Shown piece by piece: positions 6,925-46,557 of a stretch of DNA of 64,000 bases. The notes beneath the pieces are model-generated. The model was not told the DNA's origin. It saw only the letters and a program-made list of their open reading frames with translations, and ran no database searches. Numbering within the stretch: position 1 is the first letter of the stretch; every line of letters begins with the position of its first letter. The translations under genes and the position numbers were made by a program. Origin of the DNA: Spirosoma rigui (GTDB taxonomy: Bacteria > Bacteroidota > Bacteroidia > Cytophagales > Spirosomataceae); contig NZ_CP020105.1 of the NCBI RefSeq assembly GCF_002067135.1, forward strand, positions 1,550,001 to 1,614,000, read 5' to 3'.

Positions 6925-6932
6925 TACCTTTG
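6925..6932 (+). promoter_or_regulatory. Candidate -7 box before the cobalamin riboswitch
   Basis: TACCTTTG matches the Bacteroidota -7 consensus TAnnTTTG. A TTG lies upstream at 6896-6898, a slightly long spacing. Transcription would start just before the riboswitch. Confidence 0.5.
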
Positions 6933-6942
6933 CGCTGCGTTT

Positions 6943-7100
6943 TAGGTTTACCCTCTTAACAAGGGTAATTAAAAGGGAACACCGGTGCAAAACCGGGGCT
7001 ATACCCGTAGCTGTGAGTTCGATCCATAGCCGATGACAACAACGCCACTGCCTTTGGGTGGGAAGGCGTCATCGGTCGAACAAGCCAGAAGACCTGCCTT
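6943..7100 (+). ncRNA. Cobalamin (AdoCbl-type) riboswitch
   Basis: The leader contains the conserved parts of a cobalamin riboswitch in the right order: a closing stem, the GGGAAC/CCGGTGCAAAACCGG core, the CCCGTAGCTGTGA segment, the GATGAC and GCCACTG strands, a GGGAAGGCG segment and the B12 box (GCCAGAAGACCTGCC, about 7084-7098). Binding of adenosylcobalamin normally represses the downstream genes. The next gene is a TonB-dependent receptor whose start lies about 160 bases beyond, so the switch should control corrinoid uptake and salvage genes. Confidence 0.95.
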
Positions 7101-7261
7101 AAACGAATTCATGATTCGAGCTTTCGGGTAAAAAGCCGGGGATGAAAGACGTTTTTCGGTTGAATGGCGTGGTCATTTGGATGACCATTGACGGGTGCGC
7201 ACCCAGTCTATCTTTTATTTTCACTATCCGTCAGCTCATTACTTAATCAACCTGATTAATA

Positions 7262-9259
7262 ATGGGCAACACTACTACCTTGCTGTCGGCCGTCCTGGCC
7301 ACCACCTGTCTGTCAGCATTCGCGCAGACCAGTTCCAATCCACCCGTTTCGCCAGCCCGGCAACTGGATGCCGTTACCGTAACGGCCAACAAAGTCGAGC
7401 AGAAGCTTTCGCAAACGGGTAAAGTCGTCACCGTTCTCTCCGATTCCATCCTGCAACGTTACGCAACCCAGTCGGTGAGCGAGCTCCTGTCGCGGCAGGC
7501 GGGTCTCCAGATTGTGGGTGCCAATGGCCCGCTGGGTACCAATCCGGATATTTACATGCGCGGTGCATCGGCGGGGAACACGCTGATCCTGCTGGACGGA
7601 CTTCCCGTTTACGACCCGTCGGGTACGGCCAATACGTTTGACCTGAACCTGCTGACGGTGGGCGAGTGCGACCGGATCGAGATTTTGCGCGGTGCCCAGT
7701 CGACAACCTACGGGTCTGATGCGGTGGCGGGCGTAATCAATATTTTCACCCGCCGGGGTGCGGCCAGTGGCGCCGGCCGCAAGCCAGTAGGCGTAACGGC
7801 ATCACTCAACTACGGTAGTTACCAGACTTTCCGGGGAACGGTTGGTGTGAGTGGACAAACCGAAAAACTATCCTACAACGTACAATACACCCGCCAGTCG
7901 TCGGCTGGTTTCTCGGCCGCTACTGACCGAACCGGTCAGCAGAATTTCGACAAGGACGGGTATCGGCAGAATGCGTTGCTGGCGAATCTGACACTGCAAC
8001 TGAGTTCGAAACTGAGCTGGCAGATCCGGGGTATCACGACCGGCTACTCGACCGACCTGGATGCGGGCGCGTTTGCCGATGAGAAAGACTTCACGTACCA
8101 CAACCAGTTCAAGCAGATCGCAACGGGTCTGACTTACCGGCATAATCACGGTCGGCTGGTTGTCAACTACGGCCTGAGTGATAGCCGCCGTACTTACACC
8201 AACGATTCGATGGCGGTGGAACCGGGCGCTTTCGATAAATATTCGTACCAGGAATACGGCGGGCTGGCTCAGTTTGCCGAAGCTTACCACAGCCTGAAGG
8301 TAGGCAACTGGGGCGAACTGCTCACCGGGGCCGATTATCGATTCAGCAACACGGATCAGATCTACCGATCCATCAGCTCATTCGGGCTGTACGAAGCGCC
8401 ACCCATTGGTGCTGATACCGCGCGTATCGGTCAGCTGGGTGTTTACGCCACGGGTATCGTAACGCCGTACAGGGGCCTGTCGGTGGAGCTGGGCGGCCGG
8501 TATAACCGCAATTCGCTGTACGGCAGCGTATTCACGTACTCGTTTAACCCGTCGTATCTGGTCGCCGACCGCGTCAAGGTATTCGTGAATCTGTCGTCGG
8601 GTTTCCGGGCGCCTACGCTCTACCAGCTTTTCTCGCCCTATGGCAACAAGGCGCTGCAGCCTGAACGCAGTCACTCGACCGAAGCAGGCTTGCAACTCTT
8701 TACCAAAAGTCGCAATGCCTGGGTGCGGGCCGTGTATTTCGATCGCCAGATCGAGCATGTTATCTTCTTCGAGTCGCTGAATGCCGCGCCGTTTGGTCGT
8801 TACATCAACTTCGACCGGCAGCATGACCACGGCTGGGAGTTTGAAGTGCAGTCGCAGATGAACAAGCTGCTGCTGACGGGTAACCTGACCCTGCTCAACG
8901 GGGCTATCACTACGCAGACTGCTGGTCGCGACACGACGTACAACAACCTGTTTCGTCGTCCAAAAACGCAGTTGAATTTCAGTGCGGGCTACCAGTTTAC
9001 ACCGGCCCTGCTGGTGAGTGCTACAGTCCGGACGGTAGGCGATCGGGTCGACCGGTTTTATAACAACGAAACGTTTGGCACCGAAAACGTAACCCTACGG
9101 GCCTACACAACGCTTGATATCTATGCCGAAGGCAAGATCAACCCCCGGCTCCGCCTGTATGGCGACATTCGCAATCTGTTCAACGAGTCATACACGGATG
9201 TGTACGGCTATAACACCCGCGGCCGTAATGCCAATGTGGGTGTACGCTTTACCTGGTAG
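7262..9259 (+). CDS. btuB: BtuB-like TonB-dependent corrinoid receptor
   Basis: The 665-residue protein has a signal peptide (about 1-22, ending AFAQ), a TonB-box-like region (LDAVTVTANK, about residues 36-45), a plug domain with LLDGLPVYD and AGVINIFTRR, and a 22-strand-type barrel ending in an aromatic residue (VGVRFTW). Barrel phrases such as LSSGFRAPTLYQLFSPYGN are typical of vitamin B12 and related receptors. The cobalamin riboswitch directly upstream and the corrinoid genes downstream support B12 or corrinoid import across the outer membrane. It is somewhat longer than the Escherichia coli BtuB. Confidence 0.9.
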   Translation: MGNTTTLLSAVLATTCLSAFAQTSSNPPVSPARQLDAVTVTANKVEQKLSQTGKVVTVLSDSILQRYATQSVSELLSRQAGLQIVGANGPLGTNPDIYMRGASAGNTLILLDGLPVYDPSGTANTFDLNLLTVGECDRIEILRGAQSTTYGSDAVAGVINIFTRRGAASGAGRKPVGVTASLNYGSYQTFRGTVGVSGQTEKLSYNVQYTRQSSAGFSAATDRTGQQNFDKDGYRQNALLANLTLQLSSKLSWQIRGITTGYSTDLDAGAFADEKDFTYHNQFKQIATGLTYRHNHGRLVVNYGLSDSRRTYTNDSMAVEPGAFDKYSYQEYGGLAQFAEAYHSLKVGNWGELLTGADYRFSNTDQIYRSISSFGLYEAPPIGADTARIGQLGVYATGIVTPYRGLSVELGGRYNRNSLYGSVFTYSFNPSYLVADRVKVFVNLSSGFRAPTLYQLFSPYGNKALQPERSHSTEAGLQLFTKSRNAWVRAVYFDRQIEHVIFFESLNAAPFGRYINFDRQHDHGWEFEVQSQMNKLLLTGNLTLLNGAITTQTAGRDTTYNNLFRRPKTQLNFSAGYQFTPALLVSATVRTVGDRVDRFYNNETFGTENVTLRAYTTLDIYAEGKINPRLRLYGDIRNLFNESYTDVYGYNTRGRNANVGVRFTW

Positions 9260-9277
9260 TATTTTTAGACACGTACT

Positions 9278-9877
9278 ATGAAACAATCGATCAATCCCCG
9301 CTTCCTTGTGCTGATGGCCTTCATTGGCTTGATGGCGGCCTTACGCGTTGCCAACTCGGCCGACTTGTCACCGGTGGCGCATTTCACCCCTGTTGGCGCA
9401 ATGGCCCTCTTCGGCGGCTCTTATTTTACAAGTCGCTGGAAAGCCTTCGGTCTCCCGCTGTTGACACTCTGGCTGAGTGACCTGGTCATCAATGTCGTGT
9501 TGCTGGACGGAAAGTACGGCATCATGTACGACGGCTGGTACTGGATCTACGGCATTTTTGCCCTGATCGTCTGGTTTGGCAAGACCCTACTCAAGCGAAT
9601 ATCGGTCAAAAATGTGCTGGCGGCTTCGCTCGTAGCGGCACTGTCGCACTGGCTGCTGGCCGACACGAGCGTGTGGCTGGCGGGTGGTACCGACCTGCGG
9701 ACACAACTGCCCCTGAGCCGGGATTTTGCCGGCTGGCTGCAATGCATCGTGCAGGGTATACCGTATATGCGTAACTTCCTGGCCGGTACGCTGGTCTACA
9801 GCACCCTGCTGTTTGGTGGATTCGAGTGGCTGCAAACGCGCTACCCGAAACTGGCTGTTGTACGTGTACGGTCCTAG
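9278..9877 (+). CDS. DUF6580-like integral membrane protein in the B12 block
   Basis: This 199-residue protein starts 18 bases after the receptor gene, so it is almost certainly co-transcribed under the riboswitch. It has about five to six membrane segments with short loops and a GAMALFGG motif near residue 42. From memory it resembles the family called DUF6580 putative transport protein. Its size and hydrophobicity resemble small substrate-binding (S) components of ECF transporters, but no energising module is in the window. A role in moving corrinoids or precursors across the inner membrane is inference. Confidence 0.7.
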   Translation: MKQSINPRFLVLMAFIGLMAALRVANSADLSPVAHFTPVGAMALFGGSYFTSRWKAFGLPLLTLWLSDLVINVVLLDGKYGIMYDGWYWIYGIFALIVWFGKTLLKRISVKNVLAASLVAALSHWLLADTSVWLAGGTDLRTQLPLSRDFAGWLQCIVQGIPYMRNFLAGTLVYSTLLFGGFEWLQTRYPKLAVVRVRS

Positions 9878-9957
9878 TTGCTGGTACGCGCTCTGATCTG
9901 ATTTGTCATTTTTTTTGCCGGAGCCGTCAACGGTTCCGGCAATCGTATTTATCGCCT

Positions 9958-10920
9958 ATGAAAGCCTGTTCGTTTTTGCCAGCCGCCACCCAGATGGTCT
10001 ATGACATGGGGTTGCAGGAGTTGCTGCACGGCGTTACGTTCGAATGTTCGGAAGAGTCCCGGGCCGAAAAAACCATTCTGGTGCGCTGCGTGCTGGAAGG
10101 ACACAACTATTCCAGCGACGAGATCGATCGTATCTTCTCGGCGTCGAAAGCCGAGGGGCGTAGTCTGTACTACGTGGAAGAAGAAGACCTGCACCGTATT
10201 GCGCCCGATGTGATCTTCACGCAGGATGTGTGCGAAGTGTGCCAGATCGACACCAAGTGTACGCAGGCGGTACTTGACCGGTTACCGGTGCAGCCAACCG
10301 TTGTGCCACTGACGCCACAGAGCCTGACCGACGTGTTTGATACGGCCATCACCATTGCGTCGGCGCTGGGGCACGAAGAGGCCGCTTATCCGTATCTACA
10401 GGGCCTGCGCAACCGGATCGATGTGATCATTGATACGTTACGGGCCAGTCGCGCGTTGCCCAAACGGGTCATGGTGATGGAGTGGGTATCACCTATTTAC
10501 AACTGCGGCCACTGGATTCCGCATCAGATTGCCTACGCCGGGGGCATCGACATGCTGGGTAACCCTTCGGGCGACAGTATTGTGACCAGCTGGGATAAGG
10601 TACGCCGGTACGACCCCGAAGTACTCGTCATTGCACCCTGCGGTTTTACGACGGAACGGACAATGGAAGAGCTGCACTTGCTTCAGCAGCAACCGGGCTG
10701 GAGCGAGCTACGGGCAGTCGCCAGCCAGGCCGTCTACGTGGCCGATTATGACCTGTTCACGCAGCCGTCGGCGGCTACTCTGGTGGGGGGCATCGAATTA
10801 CTGGCGGCTTGTTTCCACCCCGATCTGTTTACCGTTCCGGCCTCCCTACACTATAAAGTCCATCCTGTTTATGCCGACTCGACAAGCGTATGTGCACCTG
10901 GTAACGGGCGGAGCGCGTAG
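9958..10920 (+). CDS. BtuF-like corrinoid-binding protein without signal peptide
   Basis: I chose the ATG at 9958 because the periplasmic-binding-protein fold begins there (MKACSFLPAATQMVY); the frame is open 132 bases upstream without homology. The 320-residue protein matches the BtuF/FhuD-type helical-backbone fold: two lobes and GVTFEC, then HWIPHQIAYAGGIDMLG and VLVIAPCGF. There is no signal peptide or lipobox, so the product should stay in the cytoplasm unless exported another way. A Cys cluster of the form CxxCx5C (DVCEVCQIDTKC) lies near residue 97. The gene overlaps cobU by 50 bases. Confidence 0.85.
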   Translation: MKACSFLPAATQMVYDMGLQELLHGVTFECSEESRAEKTILVRCVLEGHNYSSDEIDRIFSASKAEGRSLYYVEEEDLHRIAPDVIFTQDVCEVCQIDTKCTQAVLDRLPVQPTVVPLTPQSLTDVFDTAITIASALGHEEAAYPYLQGLRNRIDVIIDTLRASRALPKRVMVMEWVSPIYNCGHWIPHQIAYAGGIDMLGNPSGDSIVTSWDKVRRYDPEVLVIAPCGFTTERTMEELHLLQQQPGWSELRAVASQAVYVADYDLFTQPSAATLVGGIELLAACFHPDLFTVPASLHYKVHPVYADSTSVCAPGNGRSA

Positions 10921-11404
10921 CGGAAAAAGCCGCTACGCCCAGGAACTGGCCCGGCAGTGCAGCGACACGCCCATCTACGTAGCAACGGCCAAGATCTGGG
11001 ACGATGACTTTTCCGGGCGTGTTTCCCGCCACCGGCAGGACCGGGGACCCGAATGGACGGTCTACGAAGAACAGCGGACCGTAAGTAGTCTGCCGCTGGC
11101 CGGACAAGTCGTTATGATCGACTGCGTAACGCTCTGGCTGACCAATTTTTTCATGGATACAAAGCAGGATGTTGAGCAGGCGCTGGCCCTGTTTACCCGG
11201 GAGATCGACGCGTTACTGGCGTTGCCGGGCCAGTTCATTATTGTAACGAATGAACTGGGTATGGGGCTTCACGCCGACACCGCCGTTGGTCGGGCGTTCA
11301 CCGATCTGCAGGGTTGGGCCAACCAGTACGTAGCACGCCAGGCCGATGCGGTTACGCTGATGGTAAGCGGCCTGCCCATGCCCGTAAAAACGCCTGCTTT
11401 ATGA
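10871..11404 (+). CDS. cobU: Adenosylcobinamide kinase / phosphate guanylyltransferase
   Basis: The start at 10871 gives a 177-residue protein of the normal CobU length; the open frame before it is only overlap with the preceding gene. It has the P-loop GGARSGKS (residues 13-20), a SRHRQDR segment with the candidate guanylylated His at about 54, the Walker B-like MIDCVTLWLTN, and VTNELGMG. CobU phosphorylates cobinamide and activates it with GTP, the salvage step for scavenged corrinoids. It overlaps the upstream gene and shares an ATGA stop/start with the downstream gene, which indicates a tight operon. Confidence 0.93.
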   Translation: MPTRQAYVHLVTGGARSGKSRYAQELARQCSDTPIYVATAKIWDDDFSGRVSRHRQDRGPEWTVYEEQRTVSSLPLAGQVVMIDCVTLWLTNFFMDTKQDVEQALALFTREIDALLALPGQFIIVTNELGMGLHADTAVGRAFTDLQGWANQYVARQADAVTLMVSGLPMPVKTPAL

Positions 11405-12102
11405 ATAAAACCCTGATGAACTGGAGTGGCGGCAAAGATTCTGCGCTGGCGCTCTGGCATGTACTCCAGCGTGGGCACTATACGGTCGATACGCTCTTCA
11501 CTACGTTGAATGCGGCAAACCGGCGGGTATCTATGCACGGGGTTCGCGAGGAACTGCTCGATGCCCAGGCCCAGCGCCTGCATCTGCCACTGACCAAGCT
11601 GTTTCTGCCCGAAGACACTACCATGGCCGACTACCAGGAACAAATGGGTGCTGCGCTGGAACCGGTAGTCAGCTCGGGTGTTACGCATGCCGTCTTTGGC
11701 GATATATTCCTGGAAGATTTACGAACGTGGCGGGAAACGCAGCTGGCCCGTTGGTCGCTGACGGGCGTTTTTCCGCTCTGGCATGTTTTATCACGTCAGT
11801 TGCTGGACGAGTTCTGGGCTGCCGGGTTTGCTACGATCGTTGTTAGTGTTAACAGCCACTACCTCGACGCGTCCTACTGCGGGCGTGTGCTGGATCAGGC
11901 TTTTGTCGATAGTCTACCGGCCAACGTAGACCCCTGTGGCGAAAACGGCGAGTTTCACACGTTTGTGTATCAGGCACCGTATTTCAGTGCGCCCATTGAC
12001 GTCCGAATCGGGGAAACGGTCGAGAAACAGTATACCTATAAAACCGATAGGGGCGAGGAAATAAAGTCGCTGTACTACTTTACCGACCTTCAGCTAATTT
12101 AA
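11401..12102 (+). CDS. PP-loop ATPase, diphthine-ammonia ligase-like (COG2102)
   Basis: The 233-residue protein begins with a PP-loop (NWSGGKDS, residues 8-14) and has the family signature GENGEFHTFVY near residue 181. Archaeal and eukaryotic members amidate diphthine on elongation factor 2, a modification bacteria lack, so the bacterial role is different. The gene starts inside the cobU stop codon (ATGA) and belongs to the riboswitch block. An ATP-dependent amidation or other nucleotidyl activation of a corrinoid side chain is conceivable but is only inference. Confidence 0.85.
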   Translation: MNKTLMNWSGGKDSALALWHVLQRGHYTVDTLFTTLNAANRRVSMHGVREELLDAQAQRLHLPLTKLFLPEDTTMADYQEQMGAALEPVVSSGVTHAVFGDIFLEDLRTWRETQLARWSLTGVFPLWHVLSRQLLDEFWAAGFATIVVSVNSHYLDASYCGRVLDQAFVDSLPANVDPCGENGEFHTFVYQAPYFSAPIDVRIGETVEKQYTYKTDRGEEIKSLYYFTDLQLI

Positions 12103-39278: not shown

Positions 39279-40157
39279 CTACGAACCGGCAATGCGAATA
39301 AGGTCTTCGATCTGGTTGATTACTGTTGCATTTTCGGGCAGTTCTATGTCCTGTCCAACGACCTGATAACCTGTTAACAGCAGATGTGAGTCGGGGAAAG
39401 CCTTCACAAGCCGGTTCACGTAGGGCTGTACCTCGTGGTTTGAGGGTACAGAAGTAAGCGCCGTGAAAATGTAATCCGGCCGGTGTACATTGTAGGCAAA
39501 CACCAGCTCGTTGAAGGGCAGACTTTGACCCAGGTAAATCACCTTGTTGTAGCGGGCACGGATAACGTAGTTGGCAAACAGCAGACTTATTTCATGAAGC
39601 TCACCCTCGGGAAGGTAGAGCATGTACTTTTTGCCGTTTGGACGCTGTTTGCTCACCTGCCCGTCAATGGCTACAATGATCTTCTGGCGAATAAGATTTG
39701 TGATGAAGTGCTCCTGCGCTGGCCCAACCGATCCCGTTACCCAGAGGGTGCCGATACGGCTCAGGAAAGGATAGATGATGTGGATCATCGTATCCTCGAA
39801 GCCAAACTGGAGAATATTGGTACTGACAATTTTTTCGAACCGTTCTTCATCCAGATCAATCATAGAGATTGTCAGGGCGTGGATCTGATCGGGATAATTG
39901 AGCTGCCGGTCGGATATTTTGATGACCTCGCGGTACATCTCTTCAATGGACAGTTTTGAAATCTCCGATATTTTGTAACCGTGATCTTTTAGCAGTGAAA
40001 TGTTCAACACCAGCTTCAAATCCCGGTCGTCATATGTTCGAATATTTGTGTCCGTGCGCTTGGGCGAAATGATATTGTAGCGCTGCTCCCAGATACGTAA
40101 CGTATGGGCTTTTATGCCAGAGAGTTGCTCTAAATCCTTGATTGAGTAATTGCTCAT
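39279..40157 (-). CDS. MerR-type regulator with cobalamin-binding domain (CarH/LitR-like)
   Basis: The 292-residue protein has a MerR helix-turn-helix (YSIKDLEQLSGIKAHTLRIWEQRY), a four-helix domain with the CarH-type Wx9EH motif (W139, E149, H150) and a Rossmann-like domain with ELHEIS (His188) at the place of the lower-axial cobalamin ligand motif ExHxxG, the last Gly being Ser. CarH binds adenosylcobalamin, represses carotenoid genes in the dark and releases DNA in light. It lies directly downstream of a carotenoid gene on the same strand, which supports that role. Confidence 0.85.
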   Translation of the reverse strand: MSNYSIKDLEQLSGIKAHTLRIWEQRYNIISPKRTDTNIRTYDDRDLKLVLNISLLKDHGYKISEISKLSIEEMYREVIKISDRQLNYPDQIHALTISMIDLDEERFEKIVSTNILQFGFEDTMIHIIYPFLSRIGTLWVTGSVGPAQEHFITNLIRQKIIVAIDGQVSKQRPNGKKYMLYLPEGELHEISLLFANYVIRARYNKVIYLGQSLPFNELVFAYNVHRPDYIFTALTSVPSNHEVQPYVNRLVKAFPDSHLLLTGYQVVGQDIELPENATVINQIEDLIRIAGS

Positions 40158-40327
40158 AAGACAAATTAGCTACGGGTATACAGAAGGTTAGCTGACAAAT
40201 CACGCGTTTTGCGTACCTAATCCATACCGGTTCAGTAGATTATCTACGACAGGCATGCCCGGCTGGATGCCGTTGATTATGCAAATCACGTAAAATAAAC
40301 CTAAAGATAGCTATTTTGTTTAACTTT

Positions 40328-40987
40328 TCACCGCAAATGCATCAACAGATTGTGTAAAGCGAAGAAGAGGAACTGAAGGGCCAGCAACCACTTGGCGAGC
40401 CGGTTATACTTTCTAAATGGTAAATAATACCAGAGGCTAAACAGGGCGGCCGAAACCAGCCACCAGGCTACATAGTTTTGCAGGGGAACGGGCTGGTTGT
40501 ACCAGGTCCAGAAATCGAGTGCTACCGCTACGGGTTCGATAAAGACATCGAGCACAACCATCAGCGTAGAAGCCAAGAGTATTTTCAGCCAGACCGGTAC
40601 GCGAAGCTGGTCACATACTGAGCCGCAGCAGTAAGACAGCGTTAACCAGTTAATGCCAATCACGGGCGGTACCGACCATATCTTAGCGCCCAGTCCCCAG
40701 CCGTAAGCGTACCGACCAAAAATAGCTTCGGTATGCACCCCTATTACTTCAATGAAATAACTGGTTAGCAATGCGACCGCAATATAAATGTAGAAAGCAG
40801 GACGCCAGTCGGTGTGATACAGCAGCAAAACAACCAGCGAACTGATGATGGTTAGAGGGCTCAGGGGCCGAAAATAATCGGCCAGCATGGGTAGCTGGAG
40901 CCCAAAGACACCGGCTACGTAGGCCAGTATCAGCACCGTTTTGATAGTAGGATGATGACGTGATGATATGGGAATACTGCTTGCCAT
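40328..40987 (-). CDS. Carotenoid biosynthesis membrane protein, CruF-like
   Basis: The ATG at 40987 begins before the first membrane segment; the longer frame runs through the tRNA-His gene and is not credible. The 219-residue protein has about seven membrane segments and the family signature EVIGVHTEAIFGRYAYG with VPPVIGINW. This is the carotenoid synthesis family (Pfam Caroten_synth, DUF422) that includes CruF 1',2'-hydratase. It should act on a carotenoid in the inner membrane. The CarH-like gene follows after 170 bases. Confidence 0.85.
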   Translation of the reverse strand: MASSIPISSRHHPTIKTVLILAYVAGVFGLQLPMLADYFRPLSPLTIISSLVVLLLYHTDWRPAFYIYIAVALLTSYFIEVIGVHTEAIFGRYAYGWGLGAKIWSVPPVIGINWLTLSYCCGSVCDQLRVPVWLKILLASTLMVVLDVFIEPVAVALDFWTWYNQPVPLQNYVAWWLVSAALFSLWYYLPFRKYNRLAKWLLALQFLFFALHNLLMHLR

Positions 40988-41033
40988 GTGGGGAAAACCG
41001 CTTGTACCAACGGAAAGTTGGGTGGCAGGGCAT

Positions 41034-41060
41034 AAAAAAACCCTGATACACAGGGTTTTT
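41034..41060 (-). terminator. Terminator downstream of tRNA-His
   Basis: Arms 41036-41045 and 41051-41060 pair perfectly over 10 bases with a 5-base loop. On the minus strand the stem ends in a run of seven T. Confidence 0.9.
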
Positions 41061-41067
41061 AGAAGAG

Positions 41068-41142
41068 GGTGAAAGACGGGGCTCGAACCCGCGACCTCCG
41101 GAACCACAATCCGGCGCTCTAACCAACTGAGCTACAATCACC
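41068..41142 (-). tRNA. tRNA-His (GTG)
   Basis: On the minus strand the cloverleaf reads with a D arm (GCTC/GAGC), an anticodon stem CCGGA/TCCGG around TTGTGGT (anticodon GTG) and a T arm with TTCGAGC. An extra 5' G pairs with position 73, as expected for tRNA-His. The acceptor stem as read has two adjacent U-U oppositions. CCA is not encoded. Confidence 0.93.
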
Positions 41143-42369: not shown

Positions 42370-45300
42370 TCAATATTTCAGGACCTTACGCAAGGTATGC
42401 CGGTCGCCCACTTCAATCAGTAACATATACAGGCCGTTGGGCAATCCGCTCAGGTCCAGCTTCGTCTGTCGGTTGCGGGTTGTTTGCTGCATCACCGTCC
42501 GTCCTTGCATACTCGTCAGTGATAATCGGGCTGCGTCGCGTGTCAGAGGCATATCGAGGTCAACCGTAAGTACCTGGCTGGTGGGTACGGGATAGGCTTT
42601 CACGAGCGGATCGAGCGAGTTATCTTCAATACCCAATAGGGGGGCGACCGATACCGTAGCAGTGCCTGATATGGTTCCGGTACCGCAGGAATTCAGCAAG
42701 GACGTTAACCGGTATACCGTCGTTCGGGCGGGTCGTACTTCAGCAATGTAGGGTGTCGTGGTTGCCGTAGCCGTATAGCTTCGGATACTATCCGCGTAGT
42801 TAATCGTCCACGGACCGTCTCCTCCCAGTGCAATCGTCAGGTTGGCGGGCTGCCCCTCATAGATCGTTTGCGTACCGGCGAGTGTAGCCGTTGGCAGGGA
42901 GCGAATGGTGAGCTGCGTGGGGCTGTTGCTGCCCGTAACGCCGACTTCCGGGTTAAGCGCTTTAACGCGAACCGCGTATTGACCGCCCGGTGTCGATAGC
43001 GGAATCGTAGCTGTTACTGGTGATGAACCGGCCGTGGCCTGGATGTCGTATTTTTTGCTTGTATCGGCGATGCTGACGAGTTCGAACCGGAAACTGTTAC
43101 CGGGGTTGAATTCTCCCGTGGTAGTGAACGGTACCGTCAGGGACGTACCTGCGCATAGAGTTGTGCTTTGCAAGGCTCCCGTACTAATCGTTGGAATGCG
43201 CACGGTTACTTCGGCGGTAGCCGGGTTGCCCGGTAAGCCAACGCCACATCCATTAGTTACCGCCGTAACCTGGTAGGTTGTGTTGCCACGGGGTAGTACG
43301 GAAATCGTGGTGTCACTGCTGCGCGAGGTACCGGTGTAGCCACCCGATATGGTGTAGCTGTAGGGAGCCGAGCCCGTAAAGGTCAGGCGAAGCGGGACCC
43401 GGAGTCCCAGGTTCGTGTTTGACACCGGCGCCCGCAATGCCAGCGTCGGCGTCGTATTAACAACCACCCGGATCACCGAGCGGGCGCTGTAACAGCCGTT
43501 GCTGCCGATCTGATACACATAAAAGGGGTCTCCTGCGGGATCAATGTTCGTGTTCAGGGTCAACGGGGTCGGCGCTTCTGAGGTAGTCCGATTGTATGGG
43601 TCGATCCATCTGGCGCTGGCTCCCGTCTCGATGGTTGCCTGCAGCGGGGTAGCCTTGTCGTTGATACAGTAAGCGATCAGGGGTCTTGCTACAACGGGAG
43701 CGGCCGTAGTGTTTACGACAACCTGAATAGAAGCACGGCCGCTCTCGCAGGCATCAACCGTTTGAGTGACCTGATAGGTCTGAACGCCAGCCTGATTGAT
43801 GGCAGGCGTTGGCGCGCCGGGAAATGGATTGCCGTCCGGATTGTACCAGCGCAGGTTCTGTCCACCGGCCGACAGAGGACCGACGGCTTGAGCGGGCTGA
43901 TCGGTTTGTGCCTGACAGTAGGTTACGTTGCCAACGCTTGGAAGGCCGGGCAGGGGTTTGATGGTGACGACCAGACTGGCTTTACCACTTTCGCAGCCCT
44001 CGCCACTTGTTTGCGATGCCTTGTACGTTTGTGAACCAACAGCTGATGTTGGCGGAGTTGGTGCGCCGGGAAGGAGGATTTCACTATCGGTATACCACTT
44101 GATGGTGGTACCGCTGGCTGTTAGCGGTTGGGCGGGGGCGTTGTTGCAGAAGCTTACAGGCGTAACACCAGGTGCAGCCGGGGTAGCCTTGACGCGCACG
44201 TTCAGTCCGGCGCGCGGGCTTTCGCAGCCGTCCAGTGTCTGACTTACATAGTACGTAGTAGTGGCTACTGTTGCGTTCCCGGGAACCGGCGCTGTAGATG
44301 AGGCTGTACCGCCCGACGCACTAGTGCCGTACCAGTTTGCATTGGCACTCTGAACCAGGGTCGCCGTTAATACGGGGGGCGTTGTTCCCTGGCAGAAATC
44401 CACGGGCGACGTGCCGGGCTGGTTGGGGGTATCCTTGACCAGAACGGGTATGGGTGCCCGGTCGCTCTCGCAGGTATTGACCGTTTGGCTGACGTAGTAA
44501 TTGGTAGTGCCAATAATGCCCGTATTAGGCGTTGTTGCCGTTGCGGTGCCCGTTCCGCCGGTAGCGTTGGTACCGTACCACCGTAGACCTGTACCGGTTG
44601 CCGAGAGGGGGACTGCGGTGCTCCCTTCGCAGTAGGCGCTGGGCGTGCTTACGCTGGGTAGCGCCGGAATGGGATTTGTGGTAACCACAATGGCCGCCCG
44701 GCCGCTTTCGCAGCCATTAACGGTCTGGCTGACGTAGTACGTTTGTGACCCCAGTGCATCAGTTCCTGGAGACGGTGCTGTATTGGTTGCCGTTCCGCCG
44801 GTAGCGCTGGTGCCATACCAGTTTAACGTACCACCCGCCGATGATGAAGCTATTAGTGCCGATGCAGAGCGGCTTTGGCAAGCAATAACGGGCGATACGC
44901 CGGGAAGAGCCGGGGTTGCCTTCGTGGTAACCGAAATAGTAGTCCGTGGTCCTTCGCAGCCATTGAGTGTTTGGCTCACGAAATACTGAACCGTTCCGGC
45001 CTGGGTGGTGGAGGGAGTAGGTGCCGTTGCGGAGCCTGTCCCACTACTACTTACATACCAGTTCAGGGTTGCACCCGTCACGGGCGTAGCCGAGAGTGGA
45101 CTGGCTGCTACGTTCTGGCAATAGGACGGCCCTGTGCCGGTTGCCGGGGCTGGTGGCGTGCTCTTAACCTGAACCGGAATAGTCGTTCGCGGGCTTTCGC
45201 AGCCGTTTACGGTCTGGCTGACGTAGTAATTGGTGGTGCCAACAATGCCAGTGTTAGGAAGCGTTGCCGTACTGGAGCCCGTGCCGCCCGTGGCATCAGC

Positions 45301-46242
45301 ATACCAGCGCAGGCTTTGCCCTGAAGCCGCCAGCGGAACTGGGATGCTACCTTCACAATAGGGGTTGGGGGCCGTTGCCACGGGTGCTGCCGGTACACTG
45401 TTAAACGTCACAACGATGCTGGCGCGGGCGCTCTCACAACCATTAACGGTCTGGCTAACGTAGTACGTGCCACTGGCCGAAGGGGTTGGTGCAATACTCG
45501 ATGGGGTACCGCCGGTAGCGTTGGTGTTGTACCAGTTCAGCGTACCACCGCTCGCCGGGATAGCCGACAAAGGACTGGCGGTCTGTCCCTGGCAATAACT
45601 GACAGGACTCGTGCCGGGGGCTGCTGGCTTGGCCTTGACCGTTACTACGATACTGGCGCGGGCGCTTTCGCACCCGTTGATTGTCTGACTGACATAGTAT
45701 GACGTATTGCCAATAACGTTTGTACTGGGTGTGCTTGGGGTTGACGATCGTGTTCCGCCCGATATGCTGGTGTTGTACCAGTTTAAGGTGCCTCCCGTCG
45801 ATGGGGTGGCGACCAATGGACTCGCTTGGTCTCCTTCGCAGTAGGGCGCGGGGGTAGTAACGGCAGGCGGGGCAGGGGTGGTAACGGCAAGCGCCAGGCT
45901 ATTGGAGTTACGTACCGGACTGGTCGACGCAATCCGGATCTGGTAGGTAGCACTGGCCGTTGCCGGCGGAACGACGGCGACAAGGGATGTTGCCGTTGAG
46001 GATTGCGTGGTTAGATTAACGGGGCTGGTAAATGCACCGGAAGCATCAGAAAGCTGTGCGGCAAAGACATTTCCCGTACTAAACGTCCCGCTTGTGGTAT
46101 ACGTAATGACAACTGTGCTACCGGGGCAGACACTGGCTGGTGCAATGGAGCTTATTGTAATTGTCTGGGAAAAGCCAGCAACCGACAGTCCTACGACAAA
46201 CAACCATACAAAAAAGTAAGAGTAGAAGTTACGTCCTTTCAT
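42370..46242 (-). CDS. Secreted protein with ten Ig-like repeats and type IX sorting domain
   Basis: The ATG at 46242 starts a signal peptide (about residues 1-25, ending GFSQ). The 1290-residue product has an N-terminal beta-sandwich (25-120), then ten repeats of about 80 residues (about 125-935), each with a YCEG/YCQG-like start, LNWY or LRWY, and SQTVNGCES near the end. Each repeat keeps two Cys. Three further beta domains follow, then a C-terminal domain (AYPVPTSQVLTVDL to VLKY) of the type A signal for the type IX secretion system. It is probably a cell-surface or matrix adhesin; the ligand is unknown. Confidence 0.9.
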   Translation of the reverse strand: MKGRNFYSYFFVWLFVVGLSVAGFSQTITISSIAPASVCPGSTVVITYTTSGTFSTGNVFAAQLSDASGAFTSPVNLTTQSSTATSLVAVVPPATASATYQIRIASTSPVRNSNSLALAVTTPAPPAVTTPAPYCEGDQASPLVATPSTGGTLNWYNTSISGGTRSSTPSTPSTNVIGNTSYYVSQTINGCESARASIVVTVKAKPAAPGTSPVSYCQGQTASPLSAIPASGGTLNWYNTNATGGTPSSIAPTPSASGTYYVSQTVNGCESARASIVVTFNSVPAAPVATAPNPYCEGSIPVPLAASGQSLRWYADATGGTGSSTATLPNTGIVGTTNYYVSQTVNGCESPRTTIPVQVKSTPPAPATGTGPSYCQNVAASPLSATPVTGATLNWYVSSSGTGSATAPTPSTTQAGTVQYFVSQTLNGCEGPRTTISVTTKATPALPGVSPVIACQSRSASALIASSSAGGTLNWYGTSATGGTATNTAPSPGTDALGSQTYYVSQTVNGCESGRAAIVVTTNPIPALPSVSTPSAYCEGSTAVPLSATGTGLRWYGTNATGGTGTATATTPNTGIIGTTNYYVSQTVNTCESDRAPIPVLVKDTPNQPGTSPVDFCQGTTPPVLTATLVQSANANWYGTSASGGTASSTAPVPGNATVATTTYYVSQTLDGCESPRAGLNVRVKATPAAPGVTPVSFCNNAPAQPLTASGTTIKWYTDSEILLPGAPTPPTSAVGSQTYKASQTSGEGCESGKASLVVTIKPLPGLPSVGNVTYCQAQTDQPAQAVGPLSAGGQNLRWYNPDGNPFPGAPTPAINQAGVQTYQVTQTVDACESGRASIQVVVNTTAAPVVARPLIAYCINDKATPLQATIETGASARWIDPYNRTTSEAPTPLTLNTNIDPAGDPFYVYQIGSNGCYSARSVIRVVVNTTPTLALRAPVSNTNLGLRVPLRLTFTGSAPYSYTISGGYTGTSRSSDTTISVLPRGNTTYQVTAVTNGCGVGLPGNPATAEVTVRIPTISTGALQSTTLCAGTSLTVPFTTTGEFNPGNSFRFELVSIADTSKKYDIQATAGSSPVTATIPLSTPGGQYAVRVKALNPEVGVTGSNSPTQLTIRSLPTATLAGTQTIYEGQPANLTIALGGDGPWTINYADSIRSYTATATTTPYIAEVRPARTTVYRLTSLLNSCGTGTISGTATVSVAPLLGIEDNSLDPLVKAYPVPTSQVLTVDLDMPLTRDAARLSLTSMQGRTVMQQTTRNRQTKLDLSGLPNGLYMLLIEVGDRHTLRKVLKY
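43437..45870 (-). repeat. Ten tandem coding repeats of about 240 bases
   Basis: The repeats correspond to the Ig-like units of the secreted protein. They are diverged at the DNA level but share blocks that encode the YYVSQTVNGCES phrase, which recur about every 240 bases. Boundaries are approximate. Confidence 0.8.
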
Positions 46243-46557
46243 AAAGGTGATCAAGTGAGACAATTTAGGGCATAAAGTTAACCTTTTGTATCCCATATCC
46301 GGATTCGCAAAATGGCTGACTTCAGGGCAGGAATTGGTTGAACGGGCAGCCAGTTGCCGATACGCATCTGTGAACCAAATGACTGATTTTGTAGAGCGAT
46401 TAATTTAAATGAACTGTAGGGTAAAAACCGTCCTACCCAAACACAACAAAGATGATAACTACGGGACAAAAAAAAGCCATTACCCGGCGGTAATGGCATT
46501 AAATTATTGAATGATAGTGATAAATAAGGATATAGTAGCCGAAAAGCCTTACTCTGT
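46243..46557. other. Spacer between the adhesin-like and GH3 genes
   Basis: A 315-base stretch with no gene I can support. It holds the terminator of the upstream GH3 gene at its right end and presumably the promoter of the adhesin-like gene near 46260-46290, where TAACTTTA is seen on the minus strand. Confidence 0.5.
46466..46497 (-). terminator. Terminator of the GH3/hydrolase gene
   Basis: GCCATTACC (46476-46484) and GGTAATGGC (46489-46497) form a 9-base stem with loop CGGC, followed by a T-run of eight on the minus strand. Confidence 0.92.

Follow-up and report, generated by a model that had tools for sequence, protein, structure and literature searches.

A probable CarH-like B12 photoreceptor-repressor of a Cytophagales clade, and a predicted inverted-repeat operator found before its own gene and before carotenoid sigma factor, rhodopsin and pterin genes

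Published CarH operators are built of 11-bp direct repeats containing TnnACA (PMC9304148). A light-response signature of the B12 domain, consisting of GxxW, EH, GxxH and GxxxP, has been defined (PMC11796333). MerR genes that head or adjoin carotenoid genes are reported from Nonlabens (PMC11855829), Dyadobacter (PMC11573002), Sediminicola (PMC4732338) and Flavobacterium (PMC5887021), and the accessible parts of these papers describe no B12, light sensing or operator for them. The control of proteorhodopsin expression in flavobacteria has been named as needing further work (PMC3587595). Among the titles and abstract openings of the open-access papers listed, no CarH operator or CarH-controlled rhodopsin was found for Bacteroidota, and no inverted-repeat operator for CarH was found in the open-access literature searched.

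The DNA analysed here, called the window, is a stretch of 64 kb that covers positions 1550001-1614000 of a 5.83-Mb Spirosoma genome in one contig. The following features of the window are used below.

39279..40157, minus strand: carH-like gene, MerR DNA-binding domain and B12-binding domain, 292 aa (ORF, Pfam, phmmer, AlphaFold2/Foldseek, motifs)
40313..40351, no strand assigned: predicted operator, an imperfect inverted repeat before carH, overlapping the last cruF codons (23.3 bits)
40328..40987, minus strand: cruF-like gene, PF04240 carotenoid biosynthesis protein family, 219 aa (PF04240 and TIGR03460 scores)
41030..41060, minus strand: likely terminator, a hairpin between tRNA-His and cruF whose 3' arm is U-rich (fold)
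41067..41141, minus strand: tRNA-His(GTG), just upstream of cruF (ARAGORN; Rfam tRNA, 60.9 bits)
6927..7115, plus strand: cobalamin riboswitch, followed by a TonB-dependent receptor gene (Rfam RF00174, 107.1 bits), context only

The carH-like reading frame has 292 codons, and its product matched MerR_1 (PF13411, 60.6 bits) and B12-binding_2 (PF02607, 35.1 bits against a cut-off of 23) in Pfam. The sequence RIWEQRY in its MerR domain equals RxWERRY but for one residue, as in an N-terminal MerR-type DNA-binding domain. The best solved relatives by phmmer were Thermus CarH/LitR (3whp and 5c8d; E about 1e-17, residues 4-218). An AlphaFold2 model was obtained with a pLDDT of 87.3 and a pTM of 0.81, and 5c8d was its top Foldseek match (E 3.5e-16), at about 20% identity to Thermus CarH. 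Structural Z values from VIA were 18.9 for the C. thermophilum MerR CBD (8jbs/8jbt) and 18.2 for Thermus CarH, which is a tie, in a comparison where at least one fifth of the rows span residues 84-292 only and the DNA-binding domain is barely tested. Model residues up to 292 align to the B12 domain of Thermus CarH. The protein scored 85.1 bits with the NCBIfam CarH equivalog NF052513, which requires 400, and was not among the matches of the Rossmann B12 model PF02310 at E 0.001. The closest named relative comes from Spirosoma utsteinense (98% identical), and a carH-like match at E ≤0.001, in some cases weak and short, was present in 140 of the 149 genomes searched, our own included. The sequence-only reading of this locus had proposed a CarH-like B12 photoregulator, and the motifs, the predicted fold and the genomic context support this proposal well.

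That reading had also pointed to a Wx9EH motif with an axial His and to a Gly-to-Ser change in ExHxxG. Both are present as described: W139-x9-E149-H150 and H188 (in E186-x-H188), and E186-x-H188-xx-S191. In an alignment of 129 rows, one of which is Thermus CarH and two of which (the window protein and L001) are the same protein, W was kept in every row, E in 128, H in 127 and the axial His in 126. The position of the Gly-to-Ser change holds S in 81 of these rows, G in 33 and A in 7; in the 52-row alignment A1, position 191 is S in 33 and G in 9. By these alignments the change is not special, being common within the clade. The light-response signature is complete in the window protein (GTLW at 136, EH at 149, GELH at 185, GQSLP at 210) and in 104 of 127 rows, a count that leaves out Thermus CarH and L001; 19 of the remaining 23 rows lack only the Gly of GxxH. 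Judged from its sequence, the protein is CarH-like in build and in pocket motifs.

The classic B12 motif D/ExHxxG/P, SxT/V, GG is incomplete, with S191 in place of Gly/Pro, A233 in place of Ser (A233-L-T235) and T262 in place of the first Gly (T262-G263). H132 of Thermus CarH, the bis-His ligand that takes the cobalt after illumination, corresponds to V140 here, and His stands at this position in the Thermus row only (1/129). For the H132A variant of Thermus CarH, dissociation of the full-length protein on illumination in air is reported, as is minimal light-driven change of the B12 domain in crystals (PMC10442372). The bis-His ligand is also missing in the light-responsive CtMerR and photocobilins (PMC11796333), and therefore its absence does not rule out light sensing.

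These residues bear on the alternative that the regulator acts through the repeat described below but senses no light through B12, either as a CarA-like, B12-independent dimer or with some other partner. The incomplete classic motif, the missing H132 equivalent and an operator that is inverted instead of direct would suit such a protein, for which CarA (PMC9304148) and a class II LitR that answers to a LOV protein (PMC9758184) are precedents. However, the Trp lost in CarA is retained as W139 and is invariant in all 129 rows, W, E, H and the axial His rank with the best-conserved columns of the carH-like family, and the H132 equivalent is likewise missing from the light-responsive proteins just named. 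We consider this alternative unlikely.

A few CarH proteins of other genomes depart from the pocket pattern. In the CarH of genome G054 (L049, L381), Gln replaces the axial His and Ser replaces G136, and the DNA-binding domain is 83% identical. L098 (G006:C7, about 92590-93447) is a divergent CarH paralogue without the B12 motif, and its match contains a stop. L088 (G146:C55) is another divergent paralogue, with EH changed to ER and the axial His to Gln; its genome has a second CarH copy, L089, in which the motif is retained.

As in class I LitR/CarH, the gene has a genetic link to carotenoid genes, namely the adjoining cruF. In some more distant relatives, carH, a gene for an ECF sigma factor ('sigX'), crtI and crtB are contiguous, and two loci (L054 and L062) have cruF in addition. 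The order carH-sigX-crtI(-crtB) was found in Pontibacter, Adhaeribacter and others, in the first two of these without cruF. In our own genome, sigX-crtI-crtB (L041) lies away from carH, and a CrtD-like desaturase is encoded at L042 (NF042421, 616 bits).

The first sign of an operator was a repeated TGTTTA...TAAACA upstream of sigX in distant relatives. An alignment-only footprint of the carH upstream stretches showed little, and the repeat emerged from spacing statistics. When TGTNNA/TNNACA pairs were counted by spacer, leaving out stretches with identical last 120 bases and sigX matches below 40% identity, peaks appeared at 18 and 19. Upstream of carH (n=172) the counts were 37 at spacer 18 and 21 at spacer 19, where other spacers averaged 2.2; upstream of sigX (n=53) they were 19 and 28, where the others averaged 2.8. 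The closely related Spirosoma set had smaller bumps at other spacers, for example 7/30 at spacer 8. No such pair at spacer 18 or 19 occurred upstream of SOD (42), TadA (42), abh (37) or GT2 (28) genes, and with the pattern TGTYYR/YRRACA three were seen at spacer 19 in the TadA stretches. The predicted operator upstream of carH-family genes is the inverted repeat TTTTGTTTAA-N16/17-TTAAACAAAA, with the consensus ATTTTGTTTAA-N16/17-TTAAACAAAAT. The half-site TAAACA fits the CarH core TnnACA, and its two halves face each other here. In the window, the core half-sites at 40313-40351 are TGTTTA and TCAACA (plus strand) with a 19-bp spacer, and this is the sole match of at least 12 bits in the 64 kb.

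A weight matrix was trained on sites fitting TGTYYR/YRRACA only, and for this reason the window site and the proximal site of our own sigX were left out of it. Trained on carH sites alone, the matrix matched 49 of 53 sigX and 63 of 172 carH upstream stretches, 2/80 for cruF, 5/55 for crtI and 3/56 for crtB, and none of the SOD, TadA, abh and GT2 controls; in 109 of the 172 carH stretches (250 bp), no operator was found at the 1% threshold. With wrong spacers, the same matrix matched 10 and 5 of 53 sigX and 18 and 12 of 172 carH stretches, indicating that part of the signal consists of single half-sites in A+T-rich DNA. Over 177 loci (2,003 kb), many of which also supplied training sites, 96 of the 107 matches of at least 18 bits fell in the 400 bp that precede carH or sigX, and four wrong spacer pairs gave 4 to 9 matches each. 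A repeat of at least 18 bits precedes carH in 58 upstream stretches. A -7 box TANNTTTG, following the consensus of PMC3587595, falls inside the repeat or next to it in 17 of 38 sigX and 14 of 58 carH cases, where shuffles gave 1.6 and 2.2. Multiple repeats before sigX yielded 21 distances, 6 of them 43-45 bp and 12 of them 63-65 bp. In our own genome, the proximal operator of sigX is weak (13.3 bits) and the distal one scores 23.2 bits. One Lewinella locus (L249) had no operator match of at least 15 bits.

The published tandem 11-bp TnnACA operator was also sought before carH, cruF, sigX, crtI, crtB and crtD, and nothing convincing appeared; the best tandem run (p 0.05) lies before cruF and overlaps the terminator hairpin. 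Since this direct-repeat operator, the classic B12 motif and the NCBIfam cut-off were each tried and did not fit, we call the protein a CarH variant.

Whole genomes were searched with a model, R1, made from 26 carH and sigX sites, among them the window operator as our own carH site and the sigX-proximal site; 150 candidates were scored per genome, and matches are strand-wise, so that a palindrome can count twice. In our own genome, the best match beyond carH and sigX lies at the rhodopsin gene (E 0.0014; 34.1 bits with the matrix), and a further one at a PTPS-folE pair (E 0.0036). Weaker places are a CoA-binding/HNH locus (E 0.083), an Hsp20/hemC locus (E 0.16) and a fasciclin gene (E 0.43). 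In relatives, the matrix, trained on carH and sigX promoters only, gave at least 18 bits before rhodopsin in 26 of 30 loci drawn from 34 genomes with a match, and before PTPS in 23 of 30 loci drawn from 57. Four rhodopsin and seven PTPS loci fell below 18 bits. The rhodopsin misses include L304, with one base upstream, and L305 (G099), where an R1 match lies at the gene start (G099:C1:3020583-3020615), inside the stretch that was left out. Two wrong spacer pairs gave 3 and 0 for rhodopsin and 0 and 0 for PTPS, in 30 loci each.

The best R1 site per genome was inspected for 30 of the 34 genomes with a match, three of these sites (L348, L362, L364) being already among the 26 of R1. Twenty-five lie beside sigX, carH, PTPS, rhodopsin, fasciclin or CoA-binding genes, and L376 carries the letters of the L087 sigX site, which brings the best sites beside regulon genes to 26 of 30. 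The remaining four (L366, L371, L372, L375) all come from carH-less genomes. The better-supported predicted targets lie elsewhere in the genome: the ECF sigma-crtI-crtB operon, the rhodopsin gene and the PTPS-folE pair.

Several features of the predicted target loci were recorded. Our own rhodopsin (PF01036, 143.8 bits) appears by eye to be of the proton-pump type, with D, T and E at what we take to be the pump positions. The Blh gene beside it (PF15461, beta-carotene 15,15'-dioxygenase; L281:3770-4776, about 2924769-2925775) is split over two overlapping frames; both parts stand in one frame in relatives such as L289, and hence our copy looks broken. One operator match (L283:5091-5129) lies between genes for an HNH/NUMOD4 homing-endonuclease-like and a CoA-binding protein, and a site in another genus (L367) is flanked by a like pair, the HNH-like one recognised by eye. 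Another (L284:4950-4988) lies between the Hsp20 and porphobilinogen deaminase (hemC) genes, where tetrapyrrole synthesis might be tied to light. No photolyase was seen beside the operator sites of our own genome.

The distribution of the repeat was compared with that of carH in 40 genomes. R1 gave 2-12 matches in each of 25 genomes with intact carH (mean 5.56), a group that leaves out G054 (axial Gln, 0 matches), and 0-4 in 14 genomes without a full carH match (mean 1.14); the difference (p 1.2e-6) refers to raw counts without correction for phylogeny, genome size or A+T content. Seven of these 14 'carH-less' genomes have no carH match and seven have weak matches only (best E 7e-6 to 8e-4). 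One of them, G044, has a sigX with a strong operator in an assembly that is 88% complete, so that a gap in the assembly may account for the lack of carH. Many of the carH-less genomes have a small size, and sigX was absent too from two carH-less crtI stretches examined, so that carH and sigX are hard to separate. The rhodopsin loci of the carH-less G097, G130 and G115 (L377-L379) had no repeat of at least 11 bits; at the rhodopsin locus of the carH-bearing G041 (L380), the score is just 13.8 bits. G054, whose CarH carries the axial Gln, had no R1 match at E 0.1.

The repeat might nevertheless belong to another DNA-binding protein that governs the same light genes, with the CarH site being a different one. 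Known CarH operators are direct repeats, 109 of the 172 carH upstream stretches are without the inverted one, and genome G047, an 82%-complete assembly with no carH match, carries a repeat of 35.9 bits in front of its rhodopsin gene (L297). Against this alternative, which we hold to be improbable, the half-site is that of the CarH core TnnACA, the repeat goes with the presence of carH and stands before carH itself in the 58 stretches mentioned above, and the four best sites that lie off the regulon all belong to carH-less genomes.

The sequence-only reading had pointed to a CruF-like neighbour on the same strand and, together with the riboswitch block, to a link between adenosylcobalamin supply and light control of pigments. 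The neighbour is indeed on the minus strand, 170 bp upstream of carH, and is the single PF04240 match that a search of the genome gave (89.9 bits, above the cut-off of 25); it resembles CruF, with a TIGR03460 score of 72.6 bits that stays below the cut-off of 154.7. A cruF-like match was also found in 46 of 80 named carH loci, and this adjacency is what favours direct control of cruF by CarH, tied to the local riboswitch block. However, an operator was found in just 2 of 80 cruF upstream stretches, the window copy stands before carH, at the end of cruF that is remote from the cruF start, and cruF itself is preceded by a tRNA gene and by a hairpin that resembles a terminator. The riboswitch block itself exists, but it lies 32 kb from carH, looks like an ordinary B12 uptake locus and offers no specific link. 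Direct control of cruF is quite doubtful.

The hairpin has a folding energy of -12.5 kcal/mol (z -3.5; equally stable shuffles, 0/200). It was not among the matches of a consensus promoter/terminator scan, which was uninformative. A sigma-type promoter common to the cruF upstreams was also sought, and nothing but the tRNA-His and terminator sequence stood out. Downstream of the riboswitch, the receptor gene at 7262-9259 (PF00593/PF07715) is followed at 9826-12102(+) by a B12 uptake block of overlapping frames for periplasmic-binding-protein-like, CobU and diphthamide-synthase-like products. A cobalamin adenosyltransferase is encoded in the genome (PF01923, 214.5 bits), and therefore adenosylcobalamin can probably be made. 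CarH as its sole client is unsupported, as PF02310 finds other B12-binding proteins in the genome. At 42370-46296(-), the window also encodes a probable surface protein of 1308 aa, in which 'YCEG...NWY...YYVSQT' units recur many times and a sorting-like domain can be made out by eye at the C-terminus.

That the gene encodes a degenerate MerR regulator with a chance motif resemblance and no light role would agree with the low identity to Thermus CarH, but the fold match, the conserved pocket and an operator among light genes leave this explanation a negligible place.

We therefore regard the protein as probably a CarH-like (LitR/CarH-type) B12 photoreceptor-repressor of a Cytophagales clade, which would govern a light regulon including rhodopsin through the inverted repeat. 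In the dark, AdoCbl would be bound by H188 from below and by the W139/E149/H150 pocket from above, and the AdoCbl-bound protein would oligomerise and occupy TTTTGTTTAA-N16/17-TTAAACAAAA. The operator overlaps or abuts the -7 box in many promoters, which would be shut off in this way. Light would break the Co-C bond, and the repressor would leave the promoters of its own gene, the ECF sigma gene heading the crtI-crtB operon, the rhodopsin gene and the PTPS-folE pair. The ECF sigma step would form a relay like that from LitR to LitS in Streptomyces. The hemC/Hsp20, fasciclin and CoA-binding-protein genes are less sure candidate targets. The wider form of the proposal, in which the Cytophagales as a whole use a CarH-type photoreceptor without the bis-His residue and with an inverted-repeat operator, so that the pump rhodopsin, pterin synthesis and the carotenoid sigma factor rise together, seems to us evenly poised.

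On this wider reading, vitamin B12 supply would decide whether rhodopsin phototrophy is light-gated or constitutive. With operators in pairs at 43-45 or 63-65 bp, two dimers or a single tetramer could bind on the same face of the helix. The proposed mechanism would join two light biologies, B12 photoreception and rhodopsin phototrophy, and optogenetics would gain a new CarH-type operator geometry. A precise operator, predicted targets and a candidate regulator make rhodopsin regulation directly testable in a group related to flavobacteria. The protein also offers a test case for CarH-type switching without the bis-His ligand, and G054 a natural case of the lost axial ligand.

Thermus thermophilus CarH/LitR (5c8d, 3whp; class I) shares with the window protein the MerR DNA-binding domain, the four-helix and Rossmann B12 domain, Wx9EH, the axial His, the TnnACA half-site core and the carotenoid link. 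The window protein differs from it in the low identity, the absence of H132 and the Ser for Gly in ExHxxG; where Thermus CarH has three 11-bp direct repeats, the operator predicted here is an inverted repeat whose spacer measures 18/19 bp, and the predicted targets include rhodopsin and pterin genes. The MerR of Chloracidobacterium thermophilum (8jbs/8jbt) has the highest structural Z, tied with Thermus CarH within 1, and has a light-responsive CBD in which the bis-His ligand is also missing (PMC11796333). For Myxococcus CarA, inverted repeats were first proposed as the operator, as here, although PMC9304148 favours direct repeats there too, and CarA is without the Trp that is kept here. The class II LitR of Pseudomonas resembles the present system in that folE belongs to its light regulon in P. 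putida, but it is without the Rossmann B12 half and acts through a LOV protein in P. mendocina (PMC9758184). In Streptomyces LitR-LitS, as proposed here, a B12 regulator feeds an ECF sigma factor that drives crt genes (PMC12705666); its gene lies beside the sigma gene there, whereas sigX of Spirosoma stands with crtI-crtB far from carH, and the genes are contiguous in some other Cytophagales.
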